Positions 1 through 10,564 of a stretch of 10,564 nt of DNA are shown here, piece after piece. The notes beneath the pieces are model-generated. The model ran no database searches, was not told the DNA's origin, and was given only the letters and a program-made list of their open reading frames with translations. The DNA is from Actinomycetota bacterium (GTDB taxonomy: Bacteria; Actinomycetota; Thermoleophilia; Solirubrobacterales; Solirubrobacteraceae). The DNA lies in assembly GCA_019348575.1 (NCBI GenBank), contig JAHWJE010000021.1:1-10564 (forward strand), read 5' to 3'. The stretch's first letter is position 1, and every line of letters begins with the position of its first letter. The translations under genes were made by a program, and so were the position numbers.

Positions 1-387
1 TCAGCCGTCGAGCGGCCGCTGTCGACATGGGAGCGGCTCACCAACATTACCGTGCTCAGGCGGCTTTTCGTCCTGGCGATCATCGTCCTCGCCTGGGAAG
101 CCTACGCCACCTACCAGAACAATGCGCTGATGTTCCCGACATTCTCCGCCACCGCAGCGGCGTTCTGGGATTCTGTCCTAAATGCGCGGCTGCTGCAGAT
201 GGCGGCGGTATCGATCTCGGTTCTGCTGAAGGGCTATGCGATCGGCATCGCCATTGCGATGGCGCTCACCTCGCTAGCGGTCTCGACCCGGATCGGCAAC
301 GACTTGCTCTCAACCCTGACTTCGATGTTCAACCCGCTGCCCGCCATCGCACTTTTGCCGCTCGCCATGCTGTGGTTCGGGCTCGGC
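1..387 (+). pseudogene. 5'-open, 3'-truncated ABC transporter permease (SsuC/TauC/NrtB type)
   Basis: Frame 1 is open from the first base, so the gene begins before the window or at a GTG at 52. The translation has a hydrophobic N-terminal segment (RRLFVLAIIVLAWEAY), a periplasmic-type stretch, and then two hydrophobic segments ending in LPLAMLWFGLG. That is the order seen in inner-membrane permeases of nitrate/sulfonate/taurine uptake systems. In intact members the GLG is followed by another membrane helix and the EAA loop that contacts the ATPase. Here homology stops at about base 387 and neither element follows. The frame runs on to a stop at 697-699, inside aroQ, but downstream residues are not permease-like. 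Codons are less GC-rich (aat, att, aca, cta) than in the rest of the window. It cannot make a working permease. Whether the break is biological or an assembly join is not decidable here. Confidence 0.72.
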
Positions 388-608
388 GACGCGAAGGGCT
401 ACTCGGACGATCGCTTTCGCAAGGACGTGAAGTGGATCATCGACGTGGTCAAGAACGCGGGCGTCGCTGATTGGGCGTTGCAGATGCCCGGCCGCGCATC
501 GGGGTTGATCGGCGCGCGCCGGGCGATCTGTGAGCGATCGTGTGCGCGCCTGCGCAAAGCGACGGCACGAACGCGCCGATGCGGCCGCCGTGGCAGAGTT
601 GGCGGCAA
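388..608. other. Transition zone between permease fragment and aroQ; no identifiable gene
   Basis: From 388 to about 470 frame 1 still has coding-like codon use and gives a hydrophilic, amphipathic peptide (GYSDDRFRKDVKWIIDVVKN) that does not belong to the permease family. I cannot assign it; one guess is the C-terminal part of a solute-binding or other soluble protein from the same foreign source. From about 480 to 608 the translation becomes Arg/Ala/Cys-rich and looks non-coding. GTG 530 and GTG 540 open frames that run into downstream genes, but their upstream residues match nothing I know. No promoter, tRNA or clear hairpin was seen. Confidence 0.5.
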
Positions 609-1058
609 ATGCCCACCGCTCACAACCGCATCCACGTCATGCACGGCGTCAACCTCGACCAGATCGGGCGCCGCGACCCCGCGCACTACGGCGGGATGAC
701 GTTCCTTCAGCTCGAGCAGGCGATCGACGGCTACGCCGACGAGCTCGGGATGGACGCGCGCTTCTTTCAGACCAACCACGAAGGCGAGTTCGTCGAGGAG
801 CTGCACCGCGTCTCGGACCTCGCCGACGGCCTCGTCCTCAACGCCGGCGCCTGGTCGCACTACTCGCGGGCGATCGGCGAGGCGCTGGCGTTCGCGGGCG
901 TGCCGGCCGTCGAGGTGCACCTCTCGGACGTCATGGCGCGCGAGCAATGGCGCCACCTGTCGGTGCTCGCCGAGCACTGCATCGGGACGGTGGCCGGCAA
1001 GGGCAAGGAGGGCTACCGCGACGCCTTCGTGATGATCCGCCAGGCGCTGCGACCTTGA
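609..1058 (+). CDS. aroQ: 3-dehydroquinate dehydratase, type II
   Basis: This is the third enzyme of the shikimate pathway. It dehydrates 3-dehydroquinate to 3-dehydroshikimate in the cytoplasm and is normally a dodecamer. The 149-residue product has the usual family length. Active-site residues of the M. tuberculosis enzyme, as I recall them, map with a constant offset of three: N15, R22, Y27 (base), N78, H84, E102, H104 (acid) and R115. The usual NGPNL motif reads HGVNL, so a Pro is replaced by Val. ATG 609 is chosen because families start a few residues before this motif; GTG 540 and ATG 579 lie upstream in frame but would add non-homologous residues. No strong ribosome binding site is visible. 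The gene overlaps the downstream peptidase, as in the aroQ-peptidase pair common in Gram-positive genomes, but the expected upstream aroB/aroK is absent. Confidence 0.93.
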   Translation: MPTAHNRIHVMHGVNLDQIGRRDPAHYGGMTFLQLEQAIDGYADELGMDARFFQTNHEGEFVEELHRVSDLADGLVLNAGAWSHYSRAIGEALAFAGVPAVEVHLSDVMAREQWRHLSVLAEHCIGTVAGKGKEGYRDAFVMIRQALRP

Positions 1059-2128
1059 GCGGACGGCTCGAGGCCGTGCGGGCGAAGATCGGCGAGCGCG
1101 AGCTCGACGCGCTGCTGGTCTCCAACCTCGTCAACGTGCGCTGGCTGACGGGCTTCACGGGCTCCAACGCCGCCGCGCTCGTGGGCCCCGGCGCCCCCCG
1201 CTTCGTGACCGACTTTCGCTATCTGACCCAGTCCGCCGAGCAGCTCGATCCCGAATGGGAGCGCGAGATCGGCACCGACCTGCTCGAGCGCGTCGTCGAG
1301 GGGCTGCCGCAGGGGCCGCTGAAGCTCGGGTTCGACGACGCGCACGTGACCGTCAAGCAGCACGCGCAGCTCGAGCGGCTCGTCGCCGACCGCGACGTCG
1401 AGCTCGTCGCCGCCGGCGGGATCGTCGAGGCGCTGCGCGCGATCAAGGACGGTGCCGAGATCGACAGGATCCGCGCCGCGGCGAAGCTCGCCGACGAGGC
1501 CTTCGAGGAGGTCGTCGGCGCGGGCATCGTCGGGCGCACCGAGCGCGACGTCGCGCTCGACCTCGAGGTCGCGATGCGCCGCCGCGGCGCCGAGGGCGCC
1601 TCGTTTGCGCCGATCGTCGCCGCGGGCGAGCACGGCGCGCTGCCGCACGCGATGCCGCGCGACGTGCCGATCCCGCCCGGCACGCTCGTCGTCATCGACT
1701 GGGGCGCGCAGCTGGACGGCTACGCGTCGGACTGCACCCGCACCGTCGCGACGGGCGACCTCGACCCCCGCGACCGCGCCGTCTACGAGACGGTGCTGCG
1801 CGCCCAGGAGGCCGCGCTCGCCGCGATCCGCGAGGGGCCGACGGGCCAGGAGGTCGACGCGGTCGCGCGCGCGATCATCGACGAGTCCGGCCACGCCGAG
1901 CACTTCGGCCACGGGCTCGGCCACGGCGTCGGGATGGAGGTCCACGAGGGCCCGCGGCTGTCCAAGCAGGGCAAGGACCCGCTCGCCGCGGGCAACATCG
2001 TCACGGTGGAGCCCGGGATCTACGTACCCGGCGCCGTCGGCGTGCGGATCGAGGACCTCGTCGCCGTCACCGCCGACGGGTGCGAGGTGCTCAGCGGGCT
2101 GCCGAAGGCGCTGCGGACCGTCCACTGA
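1055..2128 (+). CDS. M24-family Xaa-Pro peptidase (PepQ-like)
   Basis: This is a predicted cytoplasmic metallopeptidase that cleaves Xaa-Pro peptides or dipeptides. The product has 357 residues: an N-terminal creatinase-like domain (about 1-125, containing NVRWLTGFTGSN) and a C-terminal pitta-bread catalytic domain (about 130-357). All five dinuclear-metal ligands are present: D215, D226, H290 (in GHGLGHG), E319 (VEPGIY) and E333 (RIED). Their spacing (11, 64, 29, 14) equals that of Pyrococcus furiosus prolidase as I recall it. The size favours PepQ-like over the longer PepP. The start is taken as TTG 1055, whose last two bases fall in the aroQ stop (TTGA overlap). It places SGRLEAVRAKIG at the N-terminus as in relatives, and points to translational coupling. 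GTG 1076 would cut into the first helix. In many genomes efp follows; here it does not. Confidence 0.92.
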   Translation: MSGRLEAVRAKIGERELDALLVSNLVNVRWLTGFTGSNAAALVGPGAPRFVTDFRYLTQSAEQLDPEWEREIGTDLLERVVEGLPQGPLKLGFDDAHVTVKQHAQLERLVADRDVELVAAGGIVEALRAIKDGAEIDRIRAAAKLADEAFEEVVGAGIVGRTERDVALDLEVAMRRRGAEGASFAPIVAAGEHGALPHAMPRDVPIPPGTLVVIDWGAQLDGYASDCTRTVATGDLDPRDRAVYETVLRAQEAALAAIREGPTGQEVDAVARAIIDESGHAEHFGHGLGHGVGMEVHEGPRLSKQGKDPLAAGNIVTVEPGIYVPGAVGVRIEDLVAVTADGCEVLSGLPKALRTVH

Positions 2129-2136
2129 CGAGCCGC

Positions 2137-2171
2137 GCAGATCAAGCAGCGCTGCGCGCGGGCCGATCTGC
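2137..2171 (+). terminator. Inverted repeat after the peptidase gene, possible weak terminator
   Basis: GCAGATC at 2137-2143 is repeated inverted as GATCTGC at 2165-2171, with a GC-rich loop that itself contains the perfect palindrome GCAGCGCTGC (2146-2155). It fills most of the 48-base gap before the membrane-protein gene. No T-run follows, so termination is only one option; attenuation or no function at all are equally open. Confidence 0.25.
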
Positions 2172-2176
2172 TGCGC

Positions 2177-3421
2177 GTGCGCACCCGTCTGAAGACCGCA
2201 TCGCCGTGGTGGATCGCCGCGCTCGCCGCCGTGGCGATGATGAGCTGGCTGGGCCTGCAGGGGTTCGCGTGGAGCGACTACGACGTCGAGGTCAGCGCCT
2301 CCTTCAAATCGCTGATCGCCGGTGACCTGCACGGCTTCCTCGCCCAGGCCCCGGTGTACGGCGGGTCGCTGGTGCTGCGCGCGCCGTTCGCCGCCGCGGC
2401 TGCGGCGCTCGGCGGCGGCGAGCTCGCGGTCTACCGCGCGGTGTCGATCCCGTGCCTGTTCGCGCTCGCGGCGCTCGGCCTCGTGCTCGTGCGCCGGATG
2501 GGCACGCGCGGTCGCACGAACGGCGCCCGCGCGCTCGTCCTGGGCCTCTGCGTCGCCAACCCGGTGACGCTGCGCGCGCTGGAGATCGGCCACCCGGAGG
2601 AGCTGCTGTCCGCTGCCCTGGCGATCGGCGCGGTGCTCGCCGCCGCCGACCGCCGCGCGCTGCTCGCGGCCGTCCTGCTGGGCCTCGCGATCGCGTCGAA
2701 GTCGTGGGCCGTGCTCGCGATCGGGCCCGTGCTGCTCGCGCTGCCCGAGCGTCGCGTGCTCGCGCTCGGCGTCGCCGGCGCGGTCGCGCTCGCCGTGATC
2801 GCGCCGCTCTGGCTGACCGGATCCCCCGCGACGTTCGTCAAGGCCACGAGCACGACCGGCGAGATCTTCGCGCCGTGGCACGTCTTCTGGTTTCTCGGCG
2901 AGACGGGGCACGTCGTCATCGGCGGTGACGGCCTGCCCAAGCCCGACGGCTATCGCGTCCCGCCGCAGTGGCTCTCGCCGCTCACGCACCCGCTGATCGC
3001 GTTCCTCGTCGTGCCGCTGTCGCTCGCCTGGGCGCGCGTGCATCGGGCGGCGCGCCCCGCCGGCGAGCAGCTGCTCGCGCTGCTCGCGCTGCTGTTTCTC
3101 CTGCGCTGCGCGCTCGACCCGTGGAACGTCGTCTACTACGAGCTGCCGTTCATCCTCGCGCTGCTGGCGTGGGAGGGGCTGTGCCGGCCCGAGCGCCCAC
3201 CGGTCGGCGCGCTGCTGGCCACCGTCCTGACCTGGGTGACGTTCGAGTCCGCGCCGGCCTGGCTGAGCCCGGACATGCAGACCCTGTTCTTCGCCGCCTG
3301 GGCGCTGCCGTTCGCGGCGTGGATGGCGCGGACCGCGTTCGGCGCCCGCGCCGCGCGCTCCGAGCGCCACGGCGCGCCCGATCGGGCGGGCCGCCCGATC
3401 GCCGCCGTGCCCCAGTCCTAG
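2177..3421 (+). CDS. Polytopic membrane protein, GT-C / GT87-like glycosyltransferase candidate
   Basis: The 414-residue product is strongly hydrophobic, with roughly ten to twelve predicted membrane segments (first at about 11-31; others in clusters near 64-105, 117-214 and 270-386). A short charged N-terminus precedes the first helix. The first extracytoplasmic loop carries acidic residues D34, D36 and E38 followed by APVYGGSLVLRAPF, and a later loop has GHPEE (about 137-141). I associate this pattern with uncharacterised actinobacterial GT-C-fold membrane proteins, which transfer sugars from polyprenyl-phosphate donors using an acidic residue in the first loop. Donor and acceptor are unknown. 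GTG 2177 is the only start between the peptidase stop and the first helix; no clear ribosome binding site was seen. It may be co-transcribed with aroQ and the peptidase. A hairpin lies at its 3' end. Confidence 0.75.
   Translation: MRTRLKTASPWWIAALAAVAMMSWLGLQGFAWSDYDVEVSASFKSLIAGDLHGFLAQAPVYGGSLVLRAPFAAAAAALGGGELAVYRAVSIPCLFALAALGLVLVRRMGTRGRTNGARALVLGLCVANPVTLRALEIGHPEELLSAALAIGAVLAAADRRALLAAVLLGLAIASKSWAVLAIGPVLLALPERRVLALGVAGAVALAVIAPLWLTGSPATFVKATSTTGEIFAPWHVFWFLGETGHVVIGGDGLPKPDGYRVPPQWLSPLTHPLIAFLVVPLSLAWARVHRAARPAGEQLLALLALLFLLRCALDPWNVVYYELPFILALLAWEGLCRPERPPVGALLATVLTWVTFESAPAWLSPDMQTLFFAAWALPFAAWMARTAFGARAARSERHGAPDRAGRPIAAVPQS
3379..3401 (+). terminator. Strong GC hairpin at the 3' end of the membrane-protein gene
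   Basis: CGATCGGGCGG (3379-3389) pairs perfectly with CCGCCCGATCG (3391-3401) around a single central base. In RNA this would be about nine pairs with a five-base loop. It ends 18 bases before the stop codon and about 50 bases before the promoter-like sequence of the next operon. It lacks a T-run, as is common for actinobacterial terminators, but being inside the reading frame it could also be fortuitous. Confidence 0.38.
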
Positions 3422-3449
3422 CACGAACGTGCACAGTGCGCGCGCCGCG

Positions 3450-3478
3450 TTGCAGCGCCTCCGAGCATCGGCTATAGC
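3450..3478 (+). promoter_or_regulatory. Candidate sigma70-type promoter for the four-gene oxidoreductase operon
   Basis: TTGCAG (3450-3455) and TATAGC (3473-3478) are separated by exactly 17 bases. The -10 element stands out in a very GC-rich background. Transcription would start near 3485, leaving a leader of about ten bases that holds the GAGGCAGG ribosome binding site and GTG 3495. This fits the adjacent hairpin ending the previous unit. The -35 matches consensus only in TTG, so an activator or an alternative sigma factor is possible. Confidence 0.5.
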
Positions 3479-3485
3479 TAGGGCA

Positions 3486-3493
3486 GAGGCAGG
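3486..3493 (+). promoter_or_regulatory. Ribosome binding site fixing the GMC oxidoreductase start at GTG 3495
   Basis: GAGGCAGG precedes GTG 3495 with suitable spacing (GAGG is five bases from the start). The in-frame GTG 3429 has no such site and would place the promoter-like sequence inside the coding region, so 3495 is preferred. Confidence 0.6.
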
Positions 3494-3494
3494 C

Positions 3495-5912
3495 GTGAGC
3501 CCAGCATCCGAACACTTCGACGCTGTCGTCGTCGGATCCGGGTTCGGCGGATCGGTGACGGCGTATCGGCTGGCTGACGCCGGGCACAGCGTCTGCCTGC
3601 TCGAGCGCGGCAAGCCGTTTGGGCCCAACTCGTTTCCGCGCTCCCCGCTGGGGATGAAGCGCCAGTTCTGGGATCCCAGCGAGGGCCTGCACGGGATGTT
3701 CAACGTCTGGAGCTTCGCCGACATCGACGCGATCGTCGCCAGCGGCCTCGGCGGCGGCTCGCTGGTCTACGCCAACGTCCTGCTGCGCAAGGACGAGGAC
3801 TGGTTCGTGCGCGAGCAGCCCGGCAAGGGCTCGTGGGAGGACGGCTACGAGTACTGGCCGGTCACGCGCGCCGATCTGGACCCGCACTACGACCGCGTCG
3901 AGCGGATGATGAACGTCCAGAAGTACCCGCTCGAGCAGGACCCCTACGACAAGACGCTCAAGACGCTGGCGTTCCGCGACGCCGCCCAGAAGCTCGGCCT
4001 CGACTGGCGCCTCGTGAACCTCGCCGTGACGTTCGCCAACGACGGCGACCCGCCGACGGTCGGCGAGCCGATCAAGGAGGACCGGCCGAACATCCACGGC
4101 GCGACCCGCCTGACGTGCAAGCTCACCGGCGAGTGCGACCTGGGCTGCAACCACGGCTCCAAGAACTCGCTGGACTTCACCTACATCACGGCGGCCTGGC
4201 ATGCCGGCGCCGACATCCGCACGCGCCACGAGGTGCGCTCGTTGCAACCGCGCGACGGCGGCGGCTACCGCGTCGAGTACGTCGTCCACGAGCCGGAGTC
4301 GGAGGGCACGCCGACCGACACGAGCCGCCTGGACCGCCACAGCGTCACCTGCGACCGCCTGATCCTGTCGGCCGGCACGCTCGGGACGACGTACCTGCTG
4401 CTGAAGAACCGCTCGGCGTTCCCGGGCCTCAGCCCGGCGCTCGGCTCGCGCTTCGGCGGCAACGGCGACCTGCTGACCTTCGCGCGCAACTGCATGACGG
4501 AGATCGACGGCAGGAAGGTGCCCAACGTCCTGGACTCCGCCCACGCGCCGGTCATCACGAGCGCGATCCGCGTGCCCGACGAGCGCGACGGCGCCGCGGC
4601 GGGACAGCGCGGGTTCTACCTCGAGGACGCCGGCCAGCCCGAGTTCGTGTCCTGGATGCTGCAGCTGATCGACACCCCCCGGTCGCTGCTGGAGCAGCGA
4701 CGCAGGCTGCCAGGGCTCGTGCGGGATCTCTTCAGGCACGAGGACACGGACGTCGGCGCCGAGATCTCGGAGCTGCTGGGCGAGTGCAGCGAGTCCTCGG
4801 CGTTCCTGCCGCTGCTGGGCATGGGCCGCGACGTCCCCGAGGGGACGATGTCCCTGCGCGACGGCGGCCTGGCGGTCGACTGGAAGAAGAACGGCTCCTC
4901 GAAGGAGTACTTCGAGCGCGTGCGCGACGTCTCCAGGGCCGTCGCCGACGAGCTCGGCGGGAGGTTCCTCGACAACCCGATCTGGCTGCTGAGCCGCGTC
5001 GTCACCGTGCACGCGCTCGGCGGCTGCCCGATGGGCCGCGACGACCGCGAGGGCGTCGTCGATCCGTACGGCCGCGTCTACAACCACCCCGGCCTGCACA
5101 TCGCCGACGGCTCGGTGATGCCGGGCCCGGTCGGGCCCAACCCGAGCCTGACGATCGCCGGCCTCGCCGACCGCTTCGCCGACGCCATCCTCGAAGACAT
5201 GAAGGGAAACACCGTGACCGCACCGCCACCCCCGCCTGCCGCCGAGGGCGGGAACGCCGCGCCCGATGTCGCCGCCGCCCCGCCGCCCAGCGAGCATCCC
5301 GCCTCGCTGCGGTTCACCGAGAAGATGCGCGGCTTCATCAGCTTCGGCGAGGACGACTACGACAGGGGCTTCCGGCAGGGCAAGAAGGCGCGGACGGGCT
5401 GCATGTTCCACGTCACGGTCGTGATGGACGACATCGAGCGCTTCGTCGAGGACGAGCAGCATCCGGGCACGATCAGCGGCCACGTCGACTGCGACGCGCT
5501 CGGCGGCAAGCTCGAGGTGCAGCAGGGCTGGTTCAACCTGTTCGTCGACGCCGACGAGGACGGCGAGCAGCGCAAGCTCATGAAGTACCGCCTGCTGATC
5601 GCCGACGGCGAGGGCCACCCGATCACGCTCGACGGCTACAAGGAGGTCCACGACGACCGCGGCTTCGACGTCTGGAGCGACACGACGACGCTCTTCACGC
5701 GGATCCTCGCCGGTCATGTCGAGCCCGGCGGCGATGACGACGCCGACGTCCTCGCAAGCGGCATCCTGCACGTCCTGCCACAGGACTTCGCGGTGCAGAT
5801 GACGACGTTCCGCGTCGATCCGCCGCACCGGGTCGACGCGCTCGGGCGCTTCGGCGGGCTGTTCGCCGGAAGCCTCTGGGACGCGTTCGGACCGGGCGCG
5901 AGGAAGGACTGA
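3495..5912 (+). CDS. GMC-family FAD oxidoreductase (cholesterol-oxidase-like) with extra C-terminal domain
   Basis: This is a predicted cytoplasmic flavoenzyme oxidising an alcohol, perhaps a sterol or other lipid. The product has 805 residues against about 500-570 for plain cholesterol oxidases. The FAD dinucleotide motif GSGFGG is at 14-19, a GGGSL flavin motif at about 95-99, and the C-terminal GMC signature HALGGCPMG begins at H506. It is followed by N549 in GPNPSLTI, matching the His/Asn pair of cholesterol oxidases. No Tat or Sec signal precedes the FAD fold, unlike secreted Streptomyces ChoA. A Pro/Ala-rich linker (about 575-600) joins a C-terminal domain (about 602-805; FTEKMRGFISFGEDDY, FDVWSDTTTLFTRILAGHV) which I recall from other bacterial GMC proteins but cannot name; it probably handles substrate or membrane contact. 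It is the first gene of a four-gene operon, nine bases before the hydrolase gene. The substrate is not determined by sequence. Confidence 0.85.
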   Translation: MSPASEHFDAVVVGSGFGGSVTAYRLADAGHSVCLLERGKPFGPNSFPRSPLGMKRQFWDPSEGLHGMFNVWSFADIDAIVASGLGGGSLVYANVLLRKDEDWFVREQPGKGSWEDGYEYWPVTRADLDPHYDRVERMMNVQKYPLEQDPYDKTLKTLAFRDAAQKLGLDWRLVNLAVTFANDGDPPTVGEPIKEDRPNIHGATRLTCKLTGECDLGCNHGSKNSLDFTYITAAWHAGADIRTRHEVRSLQPRDGGGYRVEYVVHEPESEGTPTDTSRLDRHSVTCDRLILSAGTLGTTYLLLKNRSAFPGLSPALGSRFGGNGDLLTFARNCMTEIDGRKVPNVLDSAHAPVITSAIRVPDERDGAAAGQRGFYLEDAGQPEFVSWMLQLIDTPRSLLEQRRRLPGLVRDLFRHEDTDVGAEISELLGECSESSAFLPLLGMGRDVPEGTMSLRDGGLAVDWKKNGSSKEYFERVRDVSRAVADELGGRFLDNPIWLLSRVVTVHALGGCPMGRDDREGVVDPYGRVYNHPGLHIADGSVMPGPVGPNPSLTIAGLADRFADAILEDMKGNTVTAPPPPPAAEGGNAAPDVAAAPPPSEHPASLRFTEKMRGFISFGEDDYDRGFRQGKKARTGCMFHVTVVMDDIERFVEDEQHPGTISGHVDCDALGGKLEVQQGWFNLFVDADEDGEQRKLMKYRLLIADGEGHPITLDGYKEVHDDRGFDVWSDTTTLFTRILAGHVEPGGDDDADVLASGILHVLPQDFAVQMTTFRVDPPHRVDALGRFGGLFAGSLWDAFGPGARKD
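5202..5216 (+). promoter_or_regulatory. Possible internal ribosome binding site and GTG start in the GMC linker
   Basis: AAGGGA (5202-5207) lies six bases before an in-frame GTG at 5214, exactly where the FAD/GMC fold ends and the Pro-rich linker begins. Initiation here would yield a separate protein of about 232 residues made of the linker and the C-terminal domain. The site is as good as the one for the gene's own start. Confidence 0.3.
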
Positions 5913-5921
5913 GGTGGTGCC

Positions 5922-6965
5922 GTGACGACCGCCGCCGCCCACACCGACGAGCTCGTCCCGCTCGACGTCGCCGACGGGGTTCCCTGCAACCTGATCCACG
6001 TCCGCGGCCCGCACACGCCGACGAAGGGGCCCGTGCTGCTCGTCCACGGCGTCGGCGTGCGAACGGAGATCTGGCGCCCGCCCACGCCGCGCACGCTGGT
6101 CGAGGCGCTCGTCGACGATGGCTACGACGTCTGGATGGAGACGTGGCGGGCGAGCATGGACGTCCCGAACAACACGTGGACGCTCGACCAGGGGGCGGTG
6201 CTCGACCATCCCGTCGCCGTCAGGAAGGTCGTCGAGCTGACCGGCGCCGACTCGATCCAGGCGATCACCCACTGCCAGGGGTCGACGAGCTTCATGATGT
6301 CCGCCTGCGCCGGGCTGGTGCCGCAGGTGCGCACGATCGTCGCAAGCGCCGTCTCGCTGCACCCGGTCGTGCCGCGCGTGGCGAAGGTGAAGCTGAAGTA
6401 CGTCGTGCCGGTCGTGTCGCGGCTCGCCGGCTACCTCGACCCGCAGTGGGGCGAGAAGGGCGCGCCCTGGGTTCTGCCGAAGGCGGTGACGGCGTACTCG
6501 AAGCTGTCGCGGCGCAAATGCGACAACGGCGTCTGCAAGGTGGCGAGCTTCATGTTCGGGTCCGGCGACCCGACGCTGTGGACCCACGAGCAGCTCAGCG
6601 CCGAGACGCACGAGTGGACGAAGGGGGAGTTCGGGCCGGCGCCGCTGACGTTCTTCAAGCAGATCGCCAGGTGCGTCGAGGCCGGCCACCTCGTGAGCGT
6701 CGAGGGCCGCCCCGAGCTGCCGGAGAGCTTCGTCTCGCAACCGCCGCAGACCGACGCGCGCTTCTCCTTCATCACCGGCGGGCGCAACCACTGCTTCCTG
6801 CCGGAGAGCCAGCAGCGCACGTTCGACTGGTTCGAGCGCCGCGAGCCCGGCCGCCACGCGCTGCACGTCATCCCCGGCTACGGGCACCTCGACGTCTTCG
6901 TCGCCGAGACCGCCGCGCAGAACGTCCACCCGATCGTCCTCGGCGAACTGGAGAAGGCCGCATGA
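5922..6965 (+). CDS. Alpha/beta hydrolase with probable cysteine nucleophile
   Basis: The 347-residue product has an alpha/beta-hydrolase fold and no signal peptide. The oxyanion-hole HGVG starts at H42. The nucleophile elbow reads THCQG with C118 where GxSxG esterases have Ser, and Thr replaces the first Gly. The late His is H322 (GYGHLD). The usual acid position reads N289 in GGRNHCFLPES, so either Asn is tolerated or another acid serves. Cys nucleophiles also occur in PHA synthases and dienelactone hydrolase. I recall this hydrolase type fused C-terminal to GMC oxidoreductases in some proteobacteria, which fits its place nine bases after the GMC gene. GTG 5922 follows GAGGTGG (5911-5917). 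The stop overlaps the next ATG. Likely role: hydrolysis or acyl transfer on the lipid handled by the operon; the exact reaction is unknown. Confidence 0.82.
   Translation: MTTAAAHTDELVPLDVADGVPCNLIHVRGPHTPTKGPVLLVHGVGVRTEIWRPPTPRTLVEALVDDGYDVWMETWRASMDVPNNTWTLDQGAVLDHPVAVRKVVELTGADSIQAITHCQGSTSFMMSACAGLVPQVRTIVASAVSLHPVVPRVAKVKLKYVVPVVSRLAGYLDPQWGEKGAPWVLPKAVTAYSKLSRRKCDNGVCKVASFMFGSGDPTLWTHEQLSAETHEWTKGEFGPAPLTFFKQIARCVEAGHLVSVEGRPELPESFVSQPPQTDARFSFITGGRNHCFLPESQQRTFDWFERREPGRHALHVIPGYGHLDVFVAETAAQNVHPIVLGELEKAA
6950..6957 (+). promoter_or_regulatory. Ribosome binding site for the COX-like gene
   Basis: GGAGAAGG lies four bases before ATG 6962, inside the end of the hydrolase gene. The ATG shares bases with the hydrolase stop (ATGA), so the two genes are probably translationally coupled. 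Confidence 0.6.
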
Positions 6966-8632
6966 GCCCCGCCCCGCCCACCGCGCAGCGCGACACGACC
7001 AGGGACGGGCTCGCGAACAAGGTCCAGTTCCGGCTGCTGACCGGATTCGAGCCGCTCTGGCGGACCGTCCGGCGCATCGACCCGCTCGAGCGGGTCGTCA
7101 ACCGCGTGCTGATCAACAACGGCATCATGAAGGCCGCCCCGCGGCCCTACCGCCTCAGCACGCTGAGCGACTACACGTCGATCGAGTCGCTGACCGACAA
7201 GACCTACAACAGCCGCCAGCTTGCGCCGGTGGCGCCGGGCGGGCCGGCGCTGCCCGATCCGCGCGAGGTGGCCGAGCTCTTCCTCCGCCCCGTCCGCCAG
7301 ACGCCAGACGGCGAGGTCGAGGTCATGCGCGAGTGCGCGAAGTCGACGGTCCTGTTCGCGTACTTCGCGCAGTGGTTCACCGACGGCTTCCTGCGCAGCC
7401 GCCGCGCCGAGCCGGATGCCGCGGAACGCTACGACGAGCTCGACCCGCGGCGCTACCGCGACATCACGCGCAGCGAGTCGACGCAGGAGATCGACATGAC
7501 GCCGCTCTACGGGATCGGTCGCGAGCAGACGCTCGCGCTGCGCGCGATGGAGGGCGGGCTGCTGAAGTCCCAGCAGATCGGCGGCGAGGAGTTCCCGCCG
7601 TTTCTCTGCGACGCGGCGGGCGCGATCAAGCCCGAGTTCGCGAGCCTCCCCGAGCCCGTCGGCTTCCGCAACCCGCGCCTGACGCCGGAGCAGAAGGCGC
7701 ACCTGTTCGCGATGGGCTCGGACGCCGGCAACTCGCAGATCGGCTACGCGATGCTCAACGTGCTCTTCCTGCGCGAGCACAACGCGATCGCGCGGGAGCT
7801 CGGAGACAAGCACCCGGCCTGGGACGACGAACGCGTGTTCCAGACCGCTCGCAACGTCGTGATCGTGCTGCTGATGAAGCTCGTGATCGAGGAGTACATC
7901 AACCACATCGCCCCCTACCGGTTTCGCTTCAAGCTGCACCCCGGGGGCTTCTCGAAGCAGCCGTGGATGCGGCCCAACTGGATCGCCGCCGAGTTCAACC
8001 TCCTCTACCGCTGGCACAGCCTCGTGCCGTCGACGATCGACGTCCACGGCGAGCCGCTCGCACTCGAGGACACGATCAACGACCCGCGGCTGCTGACCCG
8101 GCACGGGATCGGGCCGCTGTTCGACGACGCCTCGCGCCAGCGGGCGGGGGAGGTCGGGCTCTTCAACACCGCCGCCTTCTTCCATCGCATCACCACGCTG
8201 CCGAGCGTCGTGCAGTCGCGCGTCGTCAGGCTCCCGACCTACAACGACTACCGCGCCGACTGCAAGATGCCGCGGCTGGCGTCGTTTGACCAGCTGACGT
8301 CGAGCGTGCGCCTCCGGGAGGAGCTCGAGCGGCTCTACGGCACCGTCGACAGGGTCGAGTTCTACATCGGGATCTTCGCCGAGGATCCGCGGCCGAACTC
8401 CGTGCTGCCCGCGCTGCTGGGCACGATGGTCGGGCTGCACGCGTTCTCGCAGCTGCTGACGAACCCGCTGCTCGCGAAGGGGATCTGGGAGCACCCCGAC
8501 ACGTTCGCCGCGGAGGGCCGGCGGATCATCGCGCAGACCGACAGCCTCGCCACCCTCGTCAGGCGCAACCTGCCGCCCGGCGCGCCCGTGCCCGAGGTGC
8601 GCCTGACGCGCGCGGACTGGGTACGCGTGTAG
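6962..8632 (+). CDS. Cyclooxygenase-like animal-heme-peroxidase family protein (putative fatty-acid dioxygenase)
   Basis: The 556-residue product aligns over most of its length with prostaglandin H synthase from the membrane-binding region onward, without signal peptide or EGF domain. Visible matches include PYRLSTLSDYTSIES (COX: PTYNIAHDYISWES), FAYFAQWFTDGF (COX: FAFFAQHFTHQF), LREHNAIARELGDKHPAWDD, FQTAR, IEEYI and AEFNLLYRWHSL (COX: MEFNQLYHWHPL). Y349 corresponds to catalytic Tyr385, H352 to proximal heme ligand His388, Q137 to Gln203, and S496 probably to Ser530. The distal peroxidase His207 is D141, and the carboxylate-binding Arg120 looks to be Asn. Tyr-radical oxygenation of a fatty acid is therefore possible but ordinary peroxidase activity is doubtful. 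Arg/hydrophobic helices at about 20-60 may bind membrane. ATG 6962 overlaps the hydrolase stop; a catalase-like gene follows after five bases. The oxygenation product and substrate are inference. Confidence 0.85.
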   Translation: MSPAPPTAQRDTTRDGLANKVQFRLLTGFEPLWRTVRRIDPLERVVNRVLINNGIMKAAPRPYRLSTLSDYTSIESLTDKTYNSRQLAPVAPGGPALPDPREVAELFLRPVRQTPDGEVEVMRECAKSTVLFAYFAQWFTDGFLRSRRAEPDAAERYDELDPRRYRDITRSESTQEIDMTPLYGIGREQTLALRAMEGGLLKSQQIGGEEFPPFLCDAAGAIKPEFASLPEPVGFRNPRLTPEQKAHLFAMGSDAGNSQIGYAMLNVLFLREHNAIARELGDKHPAWDDERVFQTARNVVIVLLMKLVIEEYINHIAPYRFRFKLHPGGFSKQPWMRPNWIAAEFNLLYRWHSLVPSTIDVHGEPLALEDTINDPRLLTRHGIGPLFDDASRQRAGEVGLFNTAAFFHRITTLPSVVQSRVVRLPTYNDYRADCKMPRLASFDQLTSSVRLREELERLYGTVDRVEFYIGIFAEDPRPNSVLPALLGTMVGLHAFSQLLTNPLLAKGIWEHPDTFAAEGRRIIAQTDSLATLVRRNLPPGAPVPEVRLTRADWVRV

Positions 8633-8637
8633 GACGA

Positions 8638-9600
8638 ATGGACGCAAGCCCGCAAGAGCTCGGCGGTCCTGAGCGCGTCCAGCGCGCGATCGAGGCGATG
8701 GAGCGCTATGGCGGCACCGTTCCCGGCTTTCGCCGTGCTCACGGGCGCGGCATCGTCTGCCGCGGGTATTTCACCGCCACCGCCGAGGTGGCCGCGCTGA
8801 CGACCGCCGAGCACATGCAGGGCGACCGGATCGAGACCGTGGTCCGGCTCTCCAACAGCGCGTCGAGCCCCTATGCCGGCGACCGCAAGACCGTCCTCGG
8901 GCTCGGCGTGCGCTTCGAGCTGCCGTCGGGCGGCCACGCTTCGTGGGCGGCGCTGACGATCGACCGCGCCCCCTTCCGCGTGCCCGACGACTTCATCGCG
9001 CTGCAGTCCGCGACACGCCGCGGCCGCAACGGCAAGCCCAACCCGCTGCGCCTGGCGGCGCACGTCGCCACGCACGTCAAGAGCGTTCCCGGCATGCTCG
9101 CGGCCCTCCGTCACCCGTCGTCGCAGAGCTTCGCCCACGGCCTCTTCAACGGCCTGAACGCGTACTTCCTGGTCGACGCAGAAGGCCGGCGTCGCGCGTT
9201 TCGCTATCGCTGGATCCCCTCGGAGGACGGCAGCGCGCTGACCAGCGAGCAGGAGCGCACCTACCCGCCGCAGTACCTCCTCAGCGAGCTCCGCAACCGC
9301 CTCGCGAAGGCGCCCGTCACGTGGGCTCTCGTGTTCCAGATGGCCGAGCCGGGGGACGTGACCGACGACGTCACGAAGGTGTGGCCCCGGGAGCGGCGCC
9401 AGATCACCGCGGGCCGCCTCGTGGTCGAGCGGCCGCACGAGGACCAGGAGCTGGCCGACGACCTCGTGTTCGACCCGACCAAGGTCCCGCCCGGGATCGA
9501 GCTGTCCGATGACCCGATCCTGCACTTCCGCTCCGCTGCCTACAGCGAGTCCCACCGCCGCCGCGCGGCGGAGTCGCGGCCGAGCGTGCGCCCGGAGTAG
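8638..9600 (+). CDS. Small catalase-related heme protein (SrpA-like; possible hydroperoxide-converting enzyme)
   Basis: The 320-residue product belongs to the short, catalase-related hemoproteins rather than to classical catalases of about 480 or more residues. The distal-side motif RRAHGRGI has H35. The family end GIELSDDPILHFRSAAY gives R298 and Y302 in the RxxxY spacing of the catalase proximal Arg/Tyr heme ligand. The stretch where true catalases carry the distal Asn (NNTPvFF) reads LTIDRAPFR, so I do not see that Asn. It probably binds heme and reacts with peroxides, perhaps organic ones; catalase-related allene oxide synthases of corals show that the fold can rearrange fatty-acid hydroperoxides. 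ATG 8638 has AGGA at 8631-8634, overlapping the end of the preceding stop. As last gene of the operon, directly after the COX-like gene, it may use that enzyme's product. Its stop is four bases from that of the convergent gene. Confidence 0.83.
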   Translation: MDASPQELGGPERVQRAIEAMERYGGTVPGFRRAHGRGIVCRGYFTATAEVAALTTAEHMQGDRIETVVRLSNSASSPYAGDRKTVLGLGVRFELPSGGHASWAALTIDRAPFRVPDDFIALQSATRRGRNGKPNPLRLAAHVATHVKSVPGMLAALRHPSSQSFAHGLFNGLNAYFLVDAEGRRRAFRYRWIPSEDGSALTSEQERTYPPQYLLSELRNRLAKAPVTWALVFQMAEPGDVTDDVTKVWPRERRQITAGRLVVERPHEDQELADDLVFDPTKVPPGIELSDDPILHFRSAAYSESHRRRAAESRPSVRPE

Positions 9601-9604
9601 GCCG

Positions 9605-10114
9605 TCAGGTGCTCGCGATCTGCGCCGTGGTCGCGGGGGCGGCGCGCAGCGTCTGCAGCACGACGCAGTAGCGCTCCGTGAGCTTGAGCAGCGCGGCGAG
9701 CTGCTCCTCGTCGGCGCCGGGCGCGTCGAGCTCGAAGCGCAGGGCGATGCTGGCGAAGCCGACGGGCGCCTGCCGGTCGACCCCGAGCGTCCCGCGGAAG
9801 TCAAGCTCGCCGTCGGCGGTGATCGTGCCGCCCTCGAGCGGGATCTCGAGCGCCGTCGCGACCGCCTTCAGCGTGACGCCCGCGCAGGCGACGAGCGCCT
9901 CGAGCAGCATGTCGCCGGAGCACAGCAGGCTGCCGTCGCCGCCGGTCGCGGGGTGCAGCCCGGCCCTCGCGAGGGCTCTCCCGGTCTGCACGTTGCAGGC
10001 GATCTCGTCGTCGAGCGTGCCCGTCGCGGTGAGCGTCACGCGCGCGGCCTCGGGCTGCTCGGCGTAGCGCTCTTTGAGGGGCGCCTGCAGGGCGCGCAGG
10101 GCATCGCGGTCCAT
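9605..10114 (-). CDS. OsmC/Ohr-family protein
   Basis: The 169-residue minus-strand product resembles OsmC-family thiol peroxidases, which reduce organic hydroperoxides through two cysteines. C77 in EALVACAGVTL and C150 in ERYCVVLQTL sit at the family's two conserved positions; C40 and C65 are additional. An N-terminal extension (about 1-60) carrying LQAPLKERYAEQPEAA and GLHPATGGDG marks a subgroup rather than Ohr or OsmC proper, so the reaction is not certain. ATG 10114 is taken as the start. The frame is open further upstream to 10351 but those residues are antisense to the next gene and not family-like. It converges on the catalase-like gene and is divergent from the MmcQ-like gene across 24 bases. 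A role in clearing lipid hydroperoxides made by the neighbouring operon is attractive but unproven. Confidence 0.87.
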   Translation of the reverse strand: MDRDALRALQAPLKERYAEQPEAARVTLTATGTLDDEIACNVQTGRALARAGLHPATGGDGSLLCSGDMLLEALVACAGVTLKAVATALEIPLEGGTITADGELDFRGTLGVDRQAPVGFASIALRFELDAPGADEEQLAALLKLTERYCVVLQTLRAAPATTAQIAST

Positions 10115-10122
10115 GGTCGCGG

Positions 10123-10132
10123 ACGCTACCTT
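10123..10132. promoter_or_regulatory. Candidate overlapping divergent -10 elements between OsmC-like and MmcQ-like genes
   Basis: On the plus strand TACCTT (10127-10132) ends six bases before ATG 10139. On the minus strand TAGCGT (10128-10123) ends eight bases before ATG 10114. Both fit the TANNNT form of actinobacterial -10 elements at the distance expected for leaderless or nearly leaderless mRNAs, and they share the TA at 10127-10128. Neither gene has a convincing ribosome binding site. No clear -35 is seen. Confidence 0.33.
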
Positions 10133-10138
10133 GTCGCG

Positions 10139-10534
10139 ATGCCCAACTGGGAGGACGTGGTCGCGCTCGGGACGCGGCTGCCGGGCGTGGAGGTCGGGAC
10201 CTCGTACGGCACGGCGGCGCTGCGCGTACGCGGCAAGGGCATGTGCCGGATGCGTACCAACCCCGACGCGCTCGTCATCCGTGTCACGGACATGGGCGAG
10301 CGCGAGGCGCTGCTGCAGGGCGACCCGGCGGTGTTCTTCACGACCCCGCACTACGACGGCTGGCCGTACGTGCTCGTGCGCCTCGAGGCCGTCGATCCGG
10401 TCGAGCTGGGCGAGCTGCTGGAGGACGCGTGGCGGGTGTTCGCCGCCAAGCGGGTGGTGGCGGCGTGGGACGCCGAGCAGGAGCGAGCGGGGGAGCAGGC
10501 GTCGCGCGCGCGGTGTGAGCGCAACGGCGGGTAG
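10139..10534 (+). CDS. MmcQ/YjbR family protein
   Basis: The 131-residue soluble product matches the MmcQ/YjbR family (CyaY-like fold, often annotated DNA-binding without good evidence). Recognisable features are LPGVEVGTSYGTAALRVRGKG near the start (about 14-34), EREALLQGDPAVFFTTPHYDGWPYVLVRL in the middle, and LLEDAWRVFAAKRVVAAW near residue 110. The family is about 115-125 residues, so the last 15 or so residues (Glu/Arg/Ala-rich) are an ordinary tail. ATG 10139 is chosen because homology begins within ten residues; the upstream open frame is antisense to the OsmC-like gene. No ribosome binding site is seen, which suits a leaderless mRNA. The molecular function is unknown. The remaining 30 bases of the window hold nothing I can call. 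Confidence 0.85.
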   Translation: MPNWEDVVALGTRLPGVEVGTSYGTAALRVRGKGMCRMRTNPDALVIRVTDMGEREALLQGDPAVFFTTPHYDGWPYVLVRLEAVDPVELGELLEDAWRVFAAKRVVAAWDAEQERAGEQASRARCERNGG

Positions 10535-10564
10535 GCCGCGCGCGGCGCGAGGCGGCTGCGCATC

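Follow-up and report, generated by a model that had tools for sequence, protein, structure and literature searches.

A COX-like dioxygenase and a catalase-related protein encoded in a four-gene set of a Solirubrobacteraceae bacterium: a candidate bacterial oxylipin unit

A linoleate 10S-dioxygenase (10S-DOX) acting with a catalase-related 10S-hydroperoxide lyase in the cyanobacterium Nostoc punctiforme was reportedly described by Brash et al. in 2014. The two enzymes are a characterised pair in the available portions of PMC13049297 and PMC9579011, and the literature used here names, in those portions, one characterised bacterial enzyme resembling the cyclooxygenases (COX). Fungal fusions of a dioxygenase and a cytochrome P450 (linoleate diol synthases) also combine a COX-like dioxygenase with a second haem enzyme (PMC13049297, available portion). 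Here, we report a set of four genes in a 10,564-nucleotide stretch (the window; contig JAHWJE010000021.1, positions 1 to 10,564, forward strand, assembly GCA_019348575.1) from an Actinomycetota bacterium of the Solirubrobacteraceae, coding for a GMC flavin oxidoreductase, an alpha/beta-hydrolase-fold protein, a COX-like haem dioxygenase, and a catalase-related protein. The set is a rare local arrangement, and its COX-catalase core has precedent in a cyanobacterium; the joining of a distal-Asp COX-like dioxygenase and a catalase of another branch to a GMC protein and a Cys-type hydrolase is a new variation on that known type. In Nostoc, the 10S-DOX has an adjoining catalase-related hydroperoxide lyase as its partner; we therefore consider it probable, on the comparisons made here, that the COX-like dioxygenase acts first and the catalase-family protein converts its product, the two forming a bacterial oxylipin unit.

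The COX-like protein scored 198 bits against PGHS-2 over residues 22 to 542, versus 65 bits for the best non-COX peroxidase. Its AlphaFold2 model (mean predicted local distance difference test score [pLDDT], 87.3) reached TM-scores of 0.78 to 0.82 to COX structures (0.78 to 0.81 by query length; structure search, top 50) and of 0.60 to 0.64, by query length, to the other listed peroxidases and alpha-dioxygenase. Tyr349 and His352, which correspond to the COX oxygenase Tyr and proximal His, were kept in 120/120 homologous proteins. Asp141 replaces the distal His and was Asp in all 118 homologous proteins aligned at this place (120 examined, 2 unaligned there), as the distal residue was in 40/40 loci from searches that used no motif pattern. 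Patterns containing FAQWFTDG or EFNLLYRW had served to collect the genome and viral loci; as these include the motifs concerned, the conservation of Asp141 and Tyr349 in pattern-found loci is partly by construction. Substrate-binding Arg120 of COX aligned with Asn in the window protein (HMMER alignment); the COX numbering (Tyr385, proximal His388, distal His207, Arg120) is the one we take to be standard. Animal cyclooxygenases (PGHS-1/2) thus share the fold and the oxygenase Tyr with the window protein but are 25 to 28% identical to it in structural alignments, and it has Asp for His207 and Asn for Arg120.

The closer likeness is to the cyanobacterial enzyme. In Nostoc 10S-DOX, F143-t-d-s-F stands where COX has F205-t-h-q-F, accompanied by Tyr342 and a terminal GxDA487-F-x-Q490-A motif (PMC13049297, available portion). 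The window protein has WFTDGF and GLHAFSQL, so that both the distal Asp and the terminal A-F-x-Q motif are present, although the Asp of GxDA is His. WFTDSF at position 142, FDFVYRWH at 338 (Tyr342), and GIDAFSQA at 484 were found in 23 of 30 returned cyanobacterial loci, which we took to be orthologs of Nostoc 10S-DOX because the three motifs stand at exactly the published positions. To one of these orthologs (locus L191), the window protein is 39% identical over its full length. COX-like matches (E ≤ 1e-20) occurred in 54/217 genomes of the family of Scytonema sp. NIES-4073 (G586), presumably the Nostocaceae. By sequence, the third gene product is a COX-fold haem protein of the cyanobacterial linoleate 10S-dioxygenase type, with a predicted activity to match. 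The Nostoc pair further resembles the window in its F-T-D motif, its YRWH, and an adjoining catalase-family gene, which by reading of the letters follows in 12 of 15 cyanobacterial 10S-DOX-like regions; in the same 15 regions, a Tle1-type phospholipase gene precedes in 9, and probably in two more (both partners Pfam-tested in L191 alone). It differs in that the window enzyme is distant from the ortholog and the window catalase belongs to another branch; unlike the window, the Nostoc-type regions have the Tle1-type phospholipase, and no GMC or Cys-type hydrolase gene was seen in them.

The catalase-related gene lies 5 bases behind the COX-like gene on the same strand, forming an adjacent pair with it. 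Its product matched 3e4w best among PDB entries (164 bits, residues 13 to 316) and resembles the 3e4w/3e4y catalase-related protein, which we take to come from Mycobacterium avium subsp. paratuberculosis and to have peroxidase activity. Distal His35, the R-x3-Y haem ligand (Arg298/Tyr302), and a length of about 320 residues fit this small class. That length, and the lack of Asn at the aligned distal place (a residue presumably with a role in monofunctional catalases), set the protein apart from monofunctional catalase.

The GMC protein found cholesterol oxidases as its best PDB matches (100 bits), and His506/Asn549 were kept in 15/15 homolog matches covering at least 65%; we assume for this pair the catalytic role that it has in cholesterol oxidase. 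It shares with cholesterol oxidase the flavin adenine dinucleotide fold and the placing of His and Asn but differs in scoring 204.9 bits against the NCBIfam cholesterol oxidase equivalog (cut-off, 850 bits) and in an extra C-terminal domain. This unnamed beta-rich domain (AlphaFold2 mean pLDDT, 76.6; no PDB match at E ≤ 0.001) recurs behind a patatin domain at L152:6026-7540 and L153:5662-7185, near GMC-hydrolase genes, where GMC residues 605 to 801 and 602 to 798, respectively, match the genes identified as patatin by Pfam. L098 and L141 likewise have patatin genes in the vicinity of their GMC-hydrolase pair, a recurrence which ties the pair to lipids. The hydrolase matched Abhydrolase_1 just under the cut-off (23.8 versus 25.8 bits; E, 4e-5), and its nucleophile elbow THCQG had Cys, with a later His, in 23/23 distinct homologs. 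Since the nucleophile is an invariant Cys and not Ser, a plain serine-esterase role is not supported; a thiol-type acyl transfer or hydrolysis is possible.

Building on the observed gene order, fold, residues, and recurring partners, we propose that the COX-like enzyme would act on a C18 fatty acid with a double bond (oleic or linoleic), abstracting hydrogen and adding O2 to give a hydroperoxide, which its weakened peroxidase site would let it release, and that the catalase-related protein would then cleave or isomerise the released hydroperoxide. The COX-catalase pair would have been built into, or kept in, an operon of a lipid-processing pair made up of the GMC protein and the Cys-type hydrolase. 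Least certain in this scheme are the roles of that second pair: the GMC protein most likely has as its substrate an alcohol, belonging either to the product or to another lipid, and the most likely task of the hydrolase is to transfer or release an acyl group. If the proposal holds, the four genes would give a soil lineage of actinobacteria a compact genetic route to oxylipins.

In relatives, the two pairs were often found apart. At locus L096 (genome G002, which also holds L003), the window's neighbours flank the GMC and hydrolase genes at 82 to 90% protein identity, with the OsmC-like neighbour 90% identical at the same place; at L140 (G015), most of the run is kept at 65 to 82%, and the GMC-hydrolase pair is followed by the YjbR gene. 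In both, the pair keeps its place between the GT87 and YjbR genes without COX. L096 also has an open reading frame (ORF) of 113 codons that overlaps the hydrolase stop and whose end corresponds to catalase residues 250 to 317 (65%), with no COX, and in the DNA alignment the 3' end of the catalase region alone aligned significantly; the simplest reading would be that COX and the greater part of the catalase gene were deleted. Among the 146 genomes of the family of G002, COX was found in 10 (E ≤ 1e-20), the hydrolase in 12 (E ≤ 1e-60), and the catalase in 11 (E ≤ 1e-30), of which 3 catalases were at least 55% identical and the others 33 to 40%. At these cut-offs, Solirubrobacter soli (G001) was the one genome with all three: its COX gene lies on contig 2, whereas the hydrolase and catalase genes are convergent on contig 6, the catalase 54% identical to the window's. 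The best COX identity in the family was 55%, and a search of the entire order (232 genomes, E ≤ 1e-100) recovered these 10 again; COX occurred in 3/199 sampled genomes of the class (E ≤ 1e-20) and the hydrolase in 8/296 of the phylum (E ≤ 1e-25). A hydrolase search of plasmids returned 15 records, all below 60% identity.

Contigs of relatives were compared through protein listings of 120 each, equal-size contigs being taken as the same from size, rank, and source. Among the matches listed, a 10,015-base contig had GMC, COX, and catalase relatives, a 5,930-base contig GMC and COX relatives, and a 903,960-base contig GMC and catalase relatives with no COX. Close relatives of the COX-like protein and of the catalase coincide on the 10,015-base contig and on one of 18,822 bases, which favours the pair. 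A shared size of 6,185 bases (COX P0066, catalase P0283) was rejected as evidence of pairing: the match could be coincidental, and no catalase gene lies within the 10 kb covered on either side of L003, which is sister to P0066 in the tree. In a tree of 71 proteins, in which P0066 is labelled catalase-partnered despite the rejected pairing, the window's COX-like protein grouped with P0001 and P0004, from the 10,015- and 18,822-base contigs, respectively (support, 99/98).

Several of the comparisons weigh against a dioxygenase-catalase unit. The window catalase falls outside the Nostoc branch (BLASTP, 30 bits over 76 of 320 residues) and had no match with the catalase of Scytonema locus L009, while the Nostoc-branch catalase does match the Scytonema one (150 bits); should both branches work on a dioxygenase product, there were two or more recruitments of a catalase-family partner. 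Five cyanobacterial genomes with COX-like genes had no window-catalase match (E ≤ 1e-10), and the window-type catalase was found at none of 80 genome and 9 viral COX-like loci (tblastn, E ≤ 1e-5; flanks of 10 kb at most, less where a contig ended), the genome loci (L001 to L080) being the best 80 of 214 relatives. Among the matches listed, an 18,822-base contig had COX and catalase relatives without GMC, a 14,680-base contig had GMC and catalase without COX, and contigs of 7 to 8 kb with COX 79 to 81% identical (P0005, P0007, P0008) had neither GMC nor catalase. The ATGA overlap at the hydrolase stop in L096 speaks weakly for the loss of a COX gene, because ATGA follows the hydrolase also in L098 and L141, before other genes.

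The strongest competitor to a dioxygenase-catalase unit set in a lipid operon, one we hold rather unlikely, is that two unrelated modules share one promoter, the COX-catalase pair having settled behind the GMC-hydrolase lipid pair with no substrate in common. The persistence of the latter between the GT87 and YjbR genes in L096 and L140, its varied neighbours elsewhere (patatin, DUF4345, phosphoesterase, or decarboxylase), and the rarity with which hydrolase, COX, and catalase share a genome in the family all agree with it; yet the hydrolase and COX frames overlap by 4 bases, a divergent GMC-hydrolase pair in Thermocatellispora (L099) has as its neighbour another An_peroxidase, one with His in the corresponding motif, and the S. 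soli hydrolase adjoins its catalase gene, albeit on the other strand. Somewhat less likely again is a full series in which the hydrolase frees a fatty acid, the COX-like enzyme oxygenates it, the catalase-related protein converts the hydroperoxide, and the GMC protein oxidises an alcohol. Lipase-type partners (Tle1, a patatin fusion) recurring beside COX-like genes in other lineages speak for such a series, against which stand the invariant Cys of the hydrolase and the independence of the GMC-hydrolase pair from COX. We regard as improbable a peroxide-defence operon in which the COX-like and catalase-related proteins serve as peroxidases with the adjoining OsmC: it would suit the 3e4w relationship (with the peroxidase activity assumed above) and the OsmC neighbour, but the COX-like protein has the oxygenase Tyr and no distal His, OsmC stays at L096 where COX is absent, and GMC oxidases as a rule produce H2O2.

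A preliminary description of the window had proposed the full series, acting on one lipid. Its middle part, a COX-like dioxygenase with a catalase-family converter, has the Nostoc precedent in the portions cited above; the one-substrate chain finds no such footing, as the GMC-hydrolase pair persists without COX and the hydrolase is of the Cys type. Scattered homologs in related genomes were to count against it, and scattered they largely are: COX, hydrolase, and catalase homologs stood side by side in 0/146 family genomes (a search with these three), and in S. soli they are split over contigs. General four-gene synteny was likewise rejected for the 89 COX-like loci searched by tblastn; besides the missing catalase, they yielded the hydrolase in L049 alone, in a separate cluster about 8 to 10 kb from COX, and GMC in L041 alone, weakly. 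The COX-like genes elsewhere that adjoin lipases, a desaturase, or P450 lend the lipid-oxidation idea partial support. The same description named no characterised bacterial pathway with this set, which agrees with the open-licence literature for the set as a whole (among the papers listed, no title or abstract start treated it, or bacterial P450-COX pairs); the COX-catalase core does have a precedent in Nostoc.

Elsewhere, the usual neighbour of COX-like genes is a P450. By tblastn, on which the counts rest since the gene caller cut P450 genes short and missed the COX gene of L015, 59/80 loci had a same-strand P450 gene no more than about 700 bases upstream, with a sixtieth somewhat further off in L063; all four checked by Pfam were confirmed. 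Most of these loci belong to Nonomuraea, Actinomadura, Streptosporangium, and kin, with some cyanobacteria, and the 59 are not independent events, because most come from kindred genera. In the tree, the P450 label changes 4 times among 16 labelled rows, 3 of the changes being forced by well-supported branches, and one database protein (P0059) has P450 and COX-like domains fused. A fatty-acid desaturase gene lay within 3.5 kb in 52/80 loci, all among the 59. A Nostoc-type catalase gene directly downstream was found in three (L009 and L012, both Scytonema, and L072), and P450 and catalase together in 0/80, L009 being covered by only about 600 bases upstream. In L072 (5179-7878), from an Acidobacteria metagenome-assembled genome, a patatin-COX fusion is followed by the catalase-family gene. 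A protein of 711 residues without a Pfam match (L011:11566-13701 and equivalents) is encoded near the COX-like gene in 53/80 loci, directly behind it in 48.

From these partners we put forward, tentatively and at a little under even confidence, that bacterial COX-like dioxygenases front widespread two-haem oxylipin modules with an exchangeable hydroperoxide-processing partner, either a P450 directly upstream or fused, as in many actinobacteria and some cyanobacteria, or a catalase-related protein of at least two branches, one of which is the window's, to which acyl-lipid enzymes (Tle1, patatin, desaturase, Cys-type hydrolase, GMC) are added; on this proposal the fungal fusions would have their prokaryotic equivalent in the P450-COX pairs. 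Taken singly, that bacterial P450-COX pairs are a counterpart of the fungal dioxygenase-P450 enzymes is possible; the window differs from the fungal fusions in its catalase-family partner, the P450 pairing occurring in other bacteria. The partners found in the window and its relatives (two catalase branches, P450, lipases, desaturase) bear on the way in which a second haem enzyme is recruited by prostaglandin-type oxygenases and on whether counterparts of the fungal enzymes exist in bacteria. The window itself may merit less attention than the P450-COX pairs and the COX-like genes of phages. IMG/VR contigs carry COX-like genes at L085:9929-11617, L088:9869-11596, L082:2899-4587, L081:2490-4178, and L087:8844-10523, and all four that were inspected for them have the distal Asp and YRWH; that of L085 is An_peroxidase by Pfam, had no PHROG match, and lies among portal, head, tail-terminator, and tape-measure genes.

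Table 1. Features of the window and their coordinates
Feature	Position	Strand	Remarks
Promoter-like element TTGCAG-17 nt-TATAGC	3450..3478	+	Hexamers and spacing identical in L096 and L140
GMC flavin oxidoreductase, cholesterol-oxidase-like, 805 amino acids	3495..5912	+	PF05199/PF00732 (GMC_oxred_C/N)
GMC C-terminal beta-rich domain	5292..5909	+	Also behind patatin domains in two relatives
Alpha/beta-hydrolase-fold protein	5922..6965	+	PF00561; Cys118 in nucleophile elbow (THCQG), His322 (GHLD)
COX-like haem dioxygenase, distal-Asp, 10S-DOX type (predicted), 556 amino acids	6962..8632	+	PF03098 (An_peroxidase)
Catalase-related protein, 320 amino acids	8638..9600	+	PF00199; distal His35, haem-ligand Tyr302
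OsmC-like gene, convergent, outside the set	9605..10111	-	PF02566
aroQ	612..1058		Upstream neighbour
M24 peptidase	1055..2128		Upstream neighbour
GT87-like membrane protein	2177..3421		Just before GMC gene; under Pfam cut-off
YjbR-family gene			Beyond OsmC-like gene at the 3' side of the set

Positions 1 to 566 of the window have a lower GC content and a permease-like frame without a Pfam match, and were unmatched in the compared loci; homology to L096 starts at position 567, and this end of the contig may therefore be a chimera. A PHROGs search gave no match for any of the four proteins. The layout in the preliminary description was borne out: ORFs and junction sequences gave four plus-strand genes spaced by 9, -4, and 5 bases, the hydrolase and COX frames sharing the overlap; the convergent gene after the last is the OsmC-like one; and the COX-family identity of the third gene was upheld by the An_peroxidase match, the PGHS-2 score, and the COX-fold model. 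The COX frame is nested in a longer ORF (6143 to 8632), as is the GMC gene, whose GTG start at 3495 lies inside an ORF listed from 3429. The promoter-like sequence which that description saw before the first gene escaped a consensus promoter scan of the window (0 sites), but TTGCAG (3450 to 3455), 17 bases, and TATAGC (3473 to 3478) stand identically before the GMC gene in the alignment with L096 and L140. The GTG at 3429 was rejected as the GMC start, since the conserved element falls inside that ORF; the conservation of the element in the two loci supports both the start at 3495 and the candidate promoter.

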